Below, piece after piece: positions 4,020 to 12,811 of a stretch of DNA of 12,866 bases. Positions within the stretch are counted from its first letter, which is position 1; every line of letters starts with the position of its first letter. Source of the DNA: a bacterium. GTDB taxonomy: Bacteria > JAMCPX01. The notes below the pieces were generated by a model. That model saw only the letters and a program-made list of their open reading frames with translations. It ran no database searches and was not told the DNA's origin. The DNA lies in contig JAJYJX010000058.1 of assembly GCA_021789095.1 (NCBI GenBank), forward strand, positions 1-12,866, read 5' to 3'. A program made the position numbers and the translations under genes.

Positions 4020-5009
4020 CTATCCTCCTATAAGCCTTATAAGGTTTTTTATCTCGGGCGCCCTGTCTTTCAGGTTTGACTCGTCGAGTCCGTGCGACGG
4101 CTTCTTAAACAACAGCACTTCCCTGAATATGTGCATGATCTCTTCGTCACCGGTATTGTTTCTCAGCATGTGCCTTATATTGATCCCGCTGCTGTCAAAC
4201 AGGCACCCGTACAGCGTGCCTGTTGAAGAAAGCCTTATCCTGTTGCATTTGTCGCAGAACGGATGCGATATGGGTGAGATGAACCCTATTGCGCCCCTTC
4301 TGCCAAGCGGATAAACCTTTGCAACGCCGTCCATGGATGGGTTCATAAGCCCGTGCTTCATGACAAGGTATTCCTCGATCGTACTGACAGGCACAAACCC
4401 GGTCTTTGAGCTTCCTTCACCGCAAAGCGGCATTAATTCTATGAACCTGACAGTGACGGGATGGATTGATGCAAATTCAAGGAAGCGGTCTGCCTCATCG
4501 AGTCCGAGTGAATCAAGCGCAACCACGTTTATCTTCGGTCTGAACCCCTGCCCGATTGCTGCGAATATCCCGTCCATTACATCATGGAATGCGTTACTGC
4601 CTGTTATGGTATTGAACCTTTCAGGATCAAGGCTGTCCAGGCTTATGTTCAGTGAATCAAGGCCTGCGTCCTTGAGTGCAGCGGCCGTGTGCTTCAGCAT
4701 GACGCCGTTCGTTGTTATGGACACGCGCTCAATGCCGTGTATGGCTTTGACCTGTCTTATGATACTGTGTATGTCCTTCCTGAAAAGCGGTTCACCGCCT
4801 GTGAACCTTATCTTGCTTATGCCGAACTCTGCTGCTATGCGTACTGTCCTTACTATTTCCCTGCGACCGAGTTGATCCGCCCTGTCTGAAAGCTTTAGTC
4901 CGTACTTTGGCGTGCAGTAGAAACAGGAAAGATTGCACCTGTCGGTGAGTGAAATCCTGAGGTATGTATGACGTCTTCCGTATTTGTCTGTATTTTTTTC
5001 TGTTTTCAT
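4020..5009 (-). CDS. moaA: GTP 3',8-cyclase MoaA (radical SAM)
   Basis: MoaA converts GTP to the 3',8-cyclo intermediate, the first step of molybdopterin synthesis. The 329-aa protein has the N-terminal radical-SAM cluster site C25-x3-C29-x2-C32 (CNLSCFYC), the SAM-binding GGEP (71-74), and the second, substrate-binding cluster site C252-x2-C255-x13-C269. It ends in the conserved C-terminal Gly-Gly (RLIGG) that MoaA inserts into its own active site. All hallmark residues of an active enzyme are present. A TTG codon at 5021 could add four residues (MERR) but has no ribosome-binding site. The ATG at 5009 has GGAAAG/AAGG immediately upstream and is preferred. It is the first gene of moaA-moaC/B-moeA, preceded by a structured leader. 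Confidence 0.95.
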   Translation of the reverse strand: MKTEKNTDKYGRRHTYLRISLTDRCNLSCFYCTPKYGLKLSDRADQLGRREIVRTVRIAAEFGISKIRFTGGEPLFRKDIHSIIRQVKAIHGIERVSITTNGVMLKHTAAALKDAGLDSLNISLDSLDPERFNTITGSNAFHDVMDGIFAAIGQGFRPKINVVALDSLGLDEADRFLEFASIHPVTVRFIELMPLCGEGSSKTGFVPVSTIEEYLVMKHGLMNPSMDGVAKVYPLGRRGAIGFISPISHPFCDKCNRIRLSSTGTLYGCLFDSSGINIRHMLRNNTGDEEIMHIFREVLLFKKPSHGLDESNLKDRAPEIKNLIRLIGG

Positions 5010-5023
5010 CCTTCTTTCCAATC

Positions 5024-5139
5024 ACGGGAGGCACGATCGTTTCCAACCATACCCTATCGGCGCTGTGTCATAGCTTTTGCTTTAGATCACAGCACTCGAA
5101 GGAGCCCCGCTGCACGAGAAAACTCTCTGCCGTACAGAG
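5024..5139 (-). promoter_or_regulatory. Candidate Moco (molybdenum cofactor) riboswitch in the moaA leader
   Basis: The minus-strand leader folds by eye into several helices. A closing stem pairs GCGGGG (5110-5105) with UCCCGU (5029-5024). An 8-bp stem pairs GUGCUGUG (5095-5088) with CACAGCGC (5067-5060). A 10-bp stem pairs GGUAUGGUUG (5053-5044) with CGAUCGUGCC (5039-5030) and is capped by a GAAA tetraloop. Inside the 8-bp stem, UCUAAA opposite UAUGA resembles the 11-nt GNRA tetraloop receptor (CCUAAG/UAUGG). A further hairpin, CUCUG/CAGAG, is at 5139-5125. The Moco RNA motif is known upstream of moaA and is described as containing a GNRA tetraloop and receptor, so context and architecture both fit. 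The closing stem ends 4 bases before the GGAAAG ribosome-binding site, which suggests translational control. Whether it senses Moco or the tungsten form cannot be told. Confidence 0.72.
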
Positions 5140-6310: not shown

Positions 6311-6601
6311 TCAGGATTTATGCGGATTAAAGTCTTTAATGGTAGCAGAAATCTCCTTAATCATGCCGCTGCTTGCCGCCTTTGCAGCCACCTTATCCGC
6401 TGTCCCTTTTGGTATATCCACACCTTCGATATTGCCGACAAAGTTAATCTTCCGGAATTCCTTGAGAAACTTGTGCGCCTTAATCATTTCTGCAGTACCT
6501 TTTATCTCCTCGGTGCCGTTTGAAAGTATGGCTACGCGTGGCTTTGGTATCTCGTCAGGAGCATAATCACCGCCCATCGCATTAAGAGCTATAGTTGTCA
6601 T
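6311..6601 (-). pseudogene. plsX: Internally deleted plsX (phosphate acyltransferase) remnant, open reading frame intact
   Basis: This 96-aa ORF begins with a PlsX N terminus (ALNAMGGDYAPDEI, residues 5-18), then jumps directly to a segment normally found about 150 residues further into PlsX: KPRVAILSNGTEEIKG (20-35) and INFVGNIEGVDIPKGTAD (52-69). The rest (70-96) does not follow PlsX. Full-length PlsX is about 330 aa and makes acyl-phosphate for phospholipid synthesis; most of its fold is missing here, so it cannot be an active enzyme. No stop or frameshift interrupts it and it has a GGGGGG-AAG ribosome-binding site, so a short protein may still be made. It could be a decayed paralogue or a repurposed mini-protein. 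It lies just upstream of the HAD protein gene. Confidence 0.75.
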
Positions 6602-6686: not shown

Positions 6687-6800
6687 GTAAACCCCGTTAG
6701 AAAGGACGTGGCTTTAAACCACGCCCTTTCTATAAGGAATTTAACAATTATCCTATTATCCCCACCATAAATGGTGGGGCTTTCTAACGGGGTGAACCCC
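6687..6800 (-). repeat. Palindromic repeat element, intergenic copy (E1)
   Basis: This 114-bp element lies between priA and the plsX remnant. A perfect 14-bp inverted repeat (ACCCCGTTAGAAAG, 6691-6704, and its complement at 6780-6793) frames two internal hairpins. One is a 12-bp stem with a single mismatch and a 7-base loop (6700-6730). The other is CCCCACCAT-AA-ATGGTGGGG (6760-6779), a perfect stem. The priA-side end adds GGGGTTCACCCC (6789-6800, minus sense). The outer ends, length and orientation match a second copy inside uvrA. It encodes nothing of its own and looks like a small MITE-like or palindromic repeat. It starts 1 base after the priA stop codon, so its hairpins may also stop or stabilise the priA transcript. 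Confidence 0.85.
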
Positions 6801-9895: not shown

Positions 9896-12811
9896 CTAAT
9901 CTCGGTGGTTCAGCACTTTTTTCAGATACTCGCCCGTATATGAGGCCGCAGTCCCGGCAATTTCTTCCGGAGTGCCGGTTGCAACAACATACCCGCCCTT
10001 CTCGCCGCCGTCGGGCCCCAGGTCAATGATGTGGTCTGCTGATTTTATCACATCGAGGTTGTGCTCTATGACAATGACCGTATTGCCCTCGTTGACAAGC
10101 CTGTTCAGTACGTTCAGCAATTTCTTGACATCGTCAAAATGCAGGCCTGTTGTAGGCTCATCCAGGATGTACACCGTCCTGCCGGTACTTCTCCTGCTGA
10201 GCTCTTTTGCAAGCTTCACCCTCTGTGCCTCACCGCCGGAAAGCGTTGTAGCGGATTGCCCGAGCTTCAGGTAATCGAGCCCTACATCGTACAAGGTCTG
10301 TAGCTTGTCCTTTATTGCAGGTATATTGCTGAAAAAGCCCAGTGCTTCCTCAACAGACATGTCAAGAACATCGGCAATATTCCTGCCTTTATAATATACT
10401 TCAAGTGTTTCCCTGTTGTAGCGCTTGCCCTTGCATCCGTCGCACTGAACGTAAATATCCGGCAAAAAATGCATCTCTATCTGCAGGAAGCCCTGGCCGT
10501 CACATGTTTCACACCTGCCGCCCCTGACGTTAAAGCTGAACCTGCCCTTGGCATAACCCCTTGCCCTTGCTTCGGGTGTCTGTGTGAACAGATCCCTTAT
10601 AGGCTCAAATACACCCGTGTACGTTACGGCATTTGAACGCGGCGTTCTGCCGATGGGGGATTGGTCTATCTGGATGACCTTATCGACCAGCTGTACACCC
10701 TCGATCTTCTTGTAGCGGACAGTAATGCCCGTAGGACCATAAAGCTTCTGGTAAAGGACGTTATAAAGCGTATCAACCACAAGGCTGCTTTTGCCCGAGC
10801 CGGACACGCCTGTTACGCACGTAAACACGCCCGCAGGAAAACTCACATCTATGTGCTTCAGGTTATTGGTATCCGCACCGTATATTTTTAAAAAACTGTA
10901 CCCCGCCGGCCTCCTTTTCTGCGGGACGGGAATGGAAAGCCTGCCGGAAAGATACCTGCCTGTCAGAGATGCGCTGTTGTCCATTATCTGTGCCGGAGTG
11001 CCTTCTGCAACAACTTCTCCTCCCTTATGTCCCGCACCAGGCCCCATGTCTATTACATGATCCGAGGACATAATTGTTTCAGGATCGTGTTCTACCACTA
11101 TGACCGTGTTGCCGAGGTTCCTTAACCTTAAAAGCGTATTGATGAGCTTTTGATTGTCCTTCTGGTGCAGACCTATTGTCGGCTCATCAAGTATGTAAAG
11201 AACCCCTACAAGACCGGACCCGATCTGTGTGGCAAGCCTTATCCTCTGGTATTCGCCCCCTGACAGGGTACTTGCCATCCTGTCCAGTGAAATATAATCA
11301 AGACCCACATCAAACATGAACCCTATGCGGTTATCGATCTCCTTCAGCAGCCTTTCGGCTATAATCTTATGCTTCTCTGAAAGAGACAGGTTCTTTATGA
11401 ACCTGTATGACTGTTCGATGGTCATGCATGTAAATTCATATATGTTTTTCCCGTTTATCGTGACCGAGAGGCTTTCCTTCTTCAACCTGGCCCCGTTGCA
11501 CACAGAGCATGTTTTGTAGTGCAGGTATTTCTCAAGTTCCGAGACAATAAAGGGGTCATCCTCTTCTTGATACTTTCTTTTAAGATGGGGTATCACTCCC
11601 TCGAACGAATAATCGTACCTTTTTGCATACCTTGCATACGGCTGTCCTTCCATGTCTCTTGTCCCGTACAGTATTACACCCTTCTGCCATTCCGGCAGTT
11701 CGTTAAAAGGTACATCAAGATCTATGCCAAACTCCCTTTCGAGTGAATCAAGCATCTCATTAAAAAAGAAGCCGTTCCTTCTTCGCCAGGGAGAAATTGC
11801 CCCCTGTTTTATGGACAGGGTCCTGTCGGGAACGACAAGTTCGGGGGTAAAATCTACATGATAGCCTATGCCGTCACAGCTATCACACGCCCCGTAAGGA
11901 CTGTTGAAGGAAAATATCCTCGGTGCGAGCTCCGGAAGGTTTGTCCCGCATTCGGTGCATGCAAACTTACGGCTCATGGTAAACCCCGTTAAAAGCTTAT
12001 GTCTGTGATCAGCCTCGTTTTTAGCACTATCATGTATTGTGTTTTTGTCGCCCTTCACTATGGTTTGAGCTTCTAACGGGGAAGATCCCCTGTCCTTGTC
12101 AACCATATCTACTTCGACTATGCCGTCTGCAAGAGAAAGTGCTGTTTCTACCGAGTCGGCTATCCTTGAGTGCATACTTTCATCGACAGCTATCCTGTCT
12201 ATGATGATCGATATCCTGTGTTTTTTGTTTTTATCGAGCTTTATATCGTCCTGGAGTTCAACCGTTTTACCGTCTATCTTTGCCCTTGTGTAACCCTTTT
12301 TTCTCCACTGTAAGAGTTCTTTTTTGAATTCACCCTTATCCCCCCTGATAACGGGAGACATGATCATTATGCGCGTACCCTTTTCAAGCGAGAGTATCTG
12401 ATCCACCATTTGATCAACACCCTGGGAGATGAGTTCCCTTCCGCAGACAGGACAGTGAGGCGTACCTATCCTTGCATACAGCACTCTCAGGTAGTCATAA
12501 ATCTCCGTCACAGTCCCTACCGTTGATCTTGGATTGTGGCTTAGTGAGCGCTGCTCTATCGATATTGCAGGGGATAAACCCTCAATGGAATCAACGTCCG
12601 GTTTGTCCATCTGTCCAAGGAACTGTCTTGCATAGGCCGAGAGCGATTCAACATACCTGCGCTGGCCTTCTGCATATATGGTATCGAACGCCAGTGTACT
12701 CTTGCCGGAACCGGACAGTCCCGTGATGACAACAAACCTGTTTCTGGGTATATCTACGTTTATGTTTTTAAGGTTGTGCTCTCTCGCACCCCTTACAACA
12801 ATATGATCCAT
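9896..12811 (-). CDS. uvrA: Excinuclease ABC subunit UvrA with an in-frame repeat-encoded insert
   Basis: UvrA is the damage-recognition ATPase of nucleotide excision repair. This copy is 971 aa, about 30 longer than the usual ~940. Visible parts in order: Walker [10 protein letters not shown] (31-39), a UvrB-binding region (about 120-230), first zinc finger C285/C288/C309/C312, ABC signature LSGGEYQR (516-523) with ILDEPTIG (540-547), second Walker [10 protein letters not shown] (668-676), second zinc finger C767/C770/C790/C793, and second signature LSGGEAQR (857-864) with ILDEPTTG (882-889). All functional motifs are intact. The extra length lies at about residues 241-278, between the [11 protein letters not shown] segment and the first zinc finger, and is encoded by a palindromic repeat. 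The gene has its own promoter-like sequence; no LexA-type CTGT-N8-ACAG box is visible. Confidence 0.97.
11979..12090 (-). repeat. Palindromic repeat element inserted in frame within uvrA (E2)
   Basis: This 112-bp element shares its two ends with the intergenic copy E1: GTAAACCCCGTTA on one side, TTCTAACGGGG followed by a few bases and CCCC on the other. Its terminal inverted repeats are CCCCGTTAAAAGCT (11984-11997) and AGCTTCTAACGGGG (12068-12081). They pair over 14 positions in the uvrA mRNA sense, one being a G-U wobble. The interior has diverged from E1 and remains open in the uvrA frame, encoding roughly residues 241-278, a polar lysine/aspartate-rich stretch. UvrA proteins normally have only a short linker here, so the element accounts for the protein's extra length. 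Confidence 0.82.

Follow-up and report, generated by a model that had tools for sequence, protein, structure and literature searches.

Most of what is known of protein-coding palindromes comes from Rickettsia, and repeats that invade proteins in frame also occur in Wolbachia. The Rickettsia palindromic elements (RPEs) are short palindromic repeats of about 150 bp, found between genes and also, in frame and at tolerated sites, inside unrelated genes; a 2024 review treats protein-coding palindromes elsewhere in prokaryotes only as 'conceivable' (PMC10969869). In the part of the Coxiella burnetii report cited here, QMITE1 and QMITE2 are described as MITEs that overlap ORFs or are inserted into them in frame (PMC5896051), and the cited part of an account of Haloquadratum walsbyi describes SMR-A, a multicopy repeat some 110 bp long that has inverted terminal repeats, as well as MITEs that have only terminal bases in common with their source transposon (PMC3119063).

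The element described here resembles RPEs in being a short palindrome with intergenic and in-frame intragenic copies, the latter at tolerated sites of unrelated genes. It differs from them in its host lineage and ends, in a highly variable interior that encodes no conserved peptide (only the ends, PLE and LTG, recur, and in-gene copies form no group by their interiors), in its clear 4-bp target duplications, in the small minority of copies that lie in genes, and in favouring the class III signal peptide. By analogy, it appears to work like an RPE, and we do not claim it as one. The QMITEs share the in-frame addition of MITEs to ORFs, but are 150–400 bp long with direct repeats of 2–3 or 7–11 nt, and the in-gene examples in the cited part of that report concern hypothetical proteins or a gene 3' end, with no single recurring protein motif as is seen here (PMC5896051). 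SMR-A of Hqr. walsbyi is similar in length, inverted terminal repeats and high copy number; unlike the present family, SMRs are said there to lack a target duplication and often to hit other mobile elements, and the cited text does not describe in-frame invasion of proteins by these SMRs or MITEs (PMC3119063). A search of open-licence papers for the ends, the element peptide or the pilin-leader pattern returned nothing relevant.

The first-pass annotation of this DNA had proposed a second, independent family of protein-invading repeats in a bacterium apparently unrelated to Rickettsia. The distance from Rickettsia was borne out and the repeat does invade genes, which places protein-coding palindromes in an unrelated, uncultured lineage; the Coxiella QMITEs mean, however, that the phenomenon is not unprecedented outside Rickettsia (PMC5896051). 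Very probably, the repeat is a non-autonomous MITE-like transposon that undergoes an RPE-like process in this lineage and survives only at tolerated sites.

The element within uvrA

The window, i.e. the whole stretch of 12,866 nt that was analysed, is contig 192 of a draft genome (G000, genus g1; 2.15 Mb in 203 contigs, 92% complete). Its relevant features are collected in Table 1.

Table 1. Positions of the uvrA element, its parts and neighbouring features in the window
Feature	Positions	Strand	Remarks
uvrA	9896..12811	-	971 aa; NCBIfam UvrA equivalog, 1502 bits; 34-residue insert with the UvrB-interaction domain on one side and the first zinc-finger region on the other
Palindromic MITE-like element within uvrA, 98 bp	11984..12081		encodes residues 244-276 (..PLEAQT....KLLTG..); empty sites in relatives
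Left arm of terminal inverted repeat, CCCCGTTAAAAGCT	11984..11997	+	
Right arm of terminal inverted repeat, AGCTTCTAACGGGG	12068..12081	-	
Presumed target duplication, preserved copy TAAA (coding strand TTTA)	11980..11983		adjoins FTMS codons
Opposite flank of uvrA element, AAGA	12082..12085		4-bp duplication copy, decayed or originally non-matching
Intergenic family copy, 101 bp, largest subfamily	6692..6792		10 bp downstream of priA; 11/11 ends
Molybdenum-cofactor riboswitch (RF01055)	4995..5113	-	69 bits; upstream of moaA-like gene, in a moaA / moaCB / moeA cluster
96-aa ORF	6311..6601	-	apparently shortened plsX (plsX-like start, early end)

UvrA had initially been noted as about 30 residues over its usual length, with a 112-bp element at 11979–12090 bounded by 14-bp terminal inverted repeats. 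The element stands, although these limits take in flanking bases and are replaced by those of Table 1. Its 14-bp arms, CCCCGTTAAAAGCT and AGCTTCTAACGGGG, have a single mismatch as complements (13 of 14), and the RNA fold of the element has a z-score of -3.9 on the forward and -3.0 on the reverse strand. Read on the coding strand, the element has the target TTTA-C (codons F-T) to its right and TCTT to its left, so the two flanks differ; the ends of this copy have changed less than the flank. The net insert of 102 bp (98 bp plus a 4-bp target duplication) amounts to 34 codons, through which the frame remains open, and the UvrA motifs are intact on both sides, as the first reading of the sequence had it.

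The comparison drew on eight same-family genomes from three other genera (among them G001, G004 and G006 of g2, G002 and G005 of g3, and G003 of g4), to the UvrA proteins of which that of G000 is 77–82% identical. Alignment shows that exactly the 34 residues of the insert are missing from UvrA of the three g2 genomes and of G003, the empty form reading VDEGR-SFTMSQ and the filled form VDKDR-[GSSPLEA...KLLTG]-FTMSR. The absence that was to be looked for in relatives was thus found in four of them, but not in g3, where UvrA of both genomes has an additional 32 residues at the codon of the G000 insert and the DNA has no recognisable element ends.

In an AlphaFold2 model of UvrA, residues 238–273 have a pLDDT of about 28 and stand directly before the first zinc-finger cysteines, flanked by strands 230–235 and 275–279; the remainder of the fold is intact. 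The insert is thus modelled as a disordered loop, although its low pLDDT may stem in part from the few other rows aligning there. Such a loop, empty in close relatives, agrees with the earlier description of the place as a tolerated site.

A MITE-like repeat family

The exact end CCCCGTTAGAA has 104 matches in the G000 genome and a reversed-pattern control has none. Elements extend from CCCCGTTAGAA to TTCTAACGGGG (the end motif is also written CCCCGTTAG) with a variable interior, and both ends are exact in 26 of them. These counts, together with the exact 34-residue gap in relatives, put the membership of the uvrA element in the family far beyond chance. From stretches of G000 sequence taken around end matches, 63 elements were collected, mostly 77–111 bp in length with a peak at 101 bp and inverted ends of 11–14 bp. 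By their interiors, 22 of them belong to a single group, some fall into a few small groups, and many stand alone. The ends are near-constant across the 63 elements and many interiors are mutually unrelated, which is partly an effect of how the copies were found. The intergenic repeat 5 kb from uvrA that had been credited with the same ends is indeed a member (Table 1), and no copy stands near priA in five relatives, i.e. the site is empty there. Rfam gave nothing at the uvrA element, its sole match in the window being the molybdenum-cofactor riboswitch.

The tetramers on either side of G000 elements repeat each other directly, in most cases as TAAA/TAAA or TTTA/TTTA; left and right flanks match in 213 instances, compared with a mean of 160 and a maximum of 186 when right flanks were shuffled (2000 shuffles). 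Elements with the same ends in other bacterial families have perfect TTTA/TTTA, TTCA/TTCA and TTGA/TTGA duplications, and from both sets of flanks the target is TTNA, most often TTTAC/GTAAA. The end pair occurs in 14 of 386 sampled genomes, five of the nine in its own family and nine of the 377 outside it, the latter with lower copy numbers, and viral contigs yielded a single match to the element. With short elements bearing terminal inverted repeats (63 elements), a target-site duplication of fixed length (4 bp, TTNA-type), and a high copy number combined with empty sites in relatives (104 ends; uvrA, gspG and the site downstream of priA), the repeat is a MITE-like family, save that the stretches taken around matches contained neither a transposase or autonomous element bearing such ends nor a convincing long end pair as autonomous partner.

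Copies inside genes and the prepilin signal

The search for further ends that had been suggested showed most copies to be intergenic, with about 6 of the 63 in genes; in G001, none of 19 elements sampled around exact ends is convincingly in a gene. Convincing in-gene inserts are those of uvrA (102 bp), gspG (102 and 102 bp, in two lineages), gspH (102 bp), gspJ (105 bp) and pilA (108 bp). Likely ones lie in a cytochrome gene (96 bp), a sensor kinase (36 bp) and a 479-aa protein of genome G093 (87 bp). All of these are multiples of three; among all G000 elements of 60–130 bp the figure is 30 of 57. The cytochrome copy (L023) and the 32-bp sensor-kinase copy (L035), both open in frame, are likely in-gene insertions judging from their reading frames. 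The former (572–663) lies in the linker of an NrfD-plus-cytochrome gene, and it is not a clean insertion because two relatives have a linker of the same length without the ends. The G093 copy (L196, 1501–1583) is 83 bp long, has a TTGA/TTGA duplication and adds 29 residues in frame directly after a signal peptide, again near a processing site. In another bacterial family (G121; L194, 1501–1587), an element overlaps the start of a citramalate-synthase-like gene; an ATG with AAGGA ahead of it falls within the element, from which the start and first residues would then come.

More striking than the uvrA copy is that class III (prepilin) signal peptides have been hit several times. Three neighbouring pseudopilin genes of a single G000 type II secretion cluster, gspG-, gspH- and gspJ-like (Pfam on gspG- and gspJ-like: T2SSG and N_methyl), each carry an element exactly inside this signal, e.g. 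MPRENGF[IPLEV...RLQTG]FTLIEIMVV. The target codons GG(N)-TTT-AC become GF[T/I-PLE...LTG]FTLIE, and the G/F prepilin cleavage motif is thereby recreated. The fourth pseudopilin of the cluster, gspI, reads GGT TTT TCC, without TTTAC, and has no insert. The gspG site is empty in G006, G002, G005 and G003 (G006: ATG CAA AGA GAT AAA GGA TTT ACG), and gspG of G001, G004 and G008 has a 102-bp insert at the same codon as that of G000 with a different interior. In a sister genus, then, the inserts at this gspG codon are different ones. The preferred reading is that the codon was hit by separate insertions, with a loss in G006 as the alternative. In gspJ of G004 the right end is perfectly kept (..GGCTTCTAACGGGG TTTACC), and G008 has two copies of a PilA-type pilin with a 108-bp insert, one of them adjoining an empty paralog.

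The DNA pattern of the pilin-leader arrangement was found in 3 of 386 genomes (G000, G001 and G008), all of the same family, and not in the control. Pilins of the form 'GFTPLE...LTGFTLIE' had been expected in other candidate phyla, and the pattern search of the 386 genomes found none outside the family. With about 7,200 TTTAC sites expected per genome, chance does not account for pilin signals holding three of the six in-gene copies, a location that reflects tolerance, preference, or both.

A prepilin peptidase site has G at -1, F at +1 and E at +5. The pilin junctions read G/F-T-P-L-E on the left and T-G/F-T-L-I-E on the right, and a hydrophobic segment follows the right one only. To judge from these motifs, the right junction is a normal cleavage site, in which case the element-encoded residues would be part of the leader and be lost with it; most likely, the insert merely lengthens a leader that prepilin peptidase removes. 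It is possible, though we would put it somewhat short of an even chance, that the element is matched, in its ends and in its target site, to the class III signal peptide, so that each insertion at G/FT would recreate G/FTxxE and the peptidase would remove the encoded peptide post-translationally. Such removal would hide the insertion and give the element a safe, repeatedly usable site inside protein genes. That elements have entered the prepilin signal more than once suggests that mobile DNA can find shelter where proteins are processed after translation.

Origin and fate of the inserts

As the g3 genomes have 0 and 5 exact family ends, their 32-residue UvrA insert looks like a fossil; PLE stands at the predicted place in G005, where the GFTM junction residues are partly kept too. 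The lack of recognisable ends points to an older or recurrent history. The g1 and g3 inserts could descend from one ancient insertion, with ends kept in g1 and worn away in g3, as the same codon, the near-equal length (34 and 32 residues) and the common PLE would suggest, but this is somewhat less likely than not: the two g1 ends differ from each other at only 1 of 14 positions despite the large distance between the genera, and an independent insertion at a preferred site, of the kind suggested by gspG, is equally possible. Trees do not decide, since both g1+g3 (AU p 0.36) and g1+g2 (AU p 0.69) are allowed and the UvrA tree alone leaves the genera unresolved. That g3 retains an insert at this codon although the repeat family is nearly extinct there, with PLE and GFTM partly retained in G005, might also be taken to mean that the insert is under selection as a functional part of the protein, e.g. 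as a new contact surface. Such domestication, which the first-pass annotation had assumed, is unlikely, as evolution of the insert is nearly neutral while its frame has been maintained. The inserts of G002 and G005 are identical at 10 of 33 positions, with pN 0.40 and pS 0.44 (ratio about 0.9) against pN 0.07 and pS 0.50 (0.14) in the rest of UvrA; the insert is modelled as disordered, and two other genera do without it. Similarly, for gspG of G001 and G008 pN/pS is 0.09/0.09 (1.0) in the insert and 0.01/0.10 in the mature protein, and in pairs with G004 the insert has a ratio of 0.6, mature gspG having 0.04–0.06 over the comparisons. In-gene inserts are tolerated and near-neutral: the frame is kept and the residues drift. 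With empty sites, target duplications and measured drift at hand, whether such a repeat is domesticated or merely tolerated becomes testable.

The favoured reading is of a non-autonomous MITE-like transposon with a 4-bp TTNA target duplication, which would be mobilised in trans by a transposase and land mostly between genes. In-gene copies would survive only where the length of the element plus 4 bp is divisible by three, one frame through the element is open and ~30 extra residues are tolerated. The landing site in UvrA, the function of which would presumably be preserved, would be a beta-hairpin loop immediately preceding the first zinc finger. For pseudopilins and pilins, the corresponding site would be the codons TTT-AC in their class III signal (G/FTLIE), where the right end (..ACG GGG) and the duplicated TTTA would rebuild ..TG/FTLIE. 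Movement of REP/BIME-type palindromes by a RAYT (Y1) transposase is very unlikely by comparison: the genome has three Y1_Tnp genes and a few copies are hairpins of 32–40 bp, but direct 4-bp target duplications are unexpected for Y1 transposition, and no paired ends, as expected of a REP/RAYT system, flank the three Y1 loci. An artefact of assembly or binning, or a natural UvrA loop resembling the repeat by chance, might be suspected in a draft genome of this kind, yet is hardly credible given the similarity of UvrA to that of same-family genomes, the open frame, the target duplication, the recurrence at pilin sites and the excess of exact ends over the control.

In G003 (L262, 539–1599), a gene for an apparent four-helix-bundle protein, of the kind known from rRNA intervening sequences, has a lone end on one side and a full element on the other, and this unit has TTTA at both outer edges.
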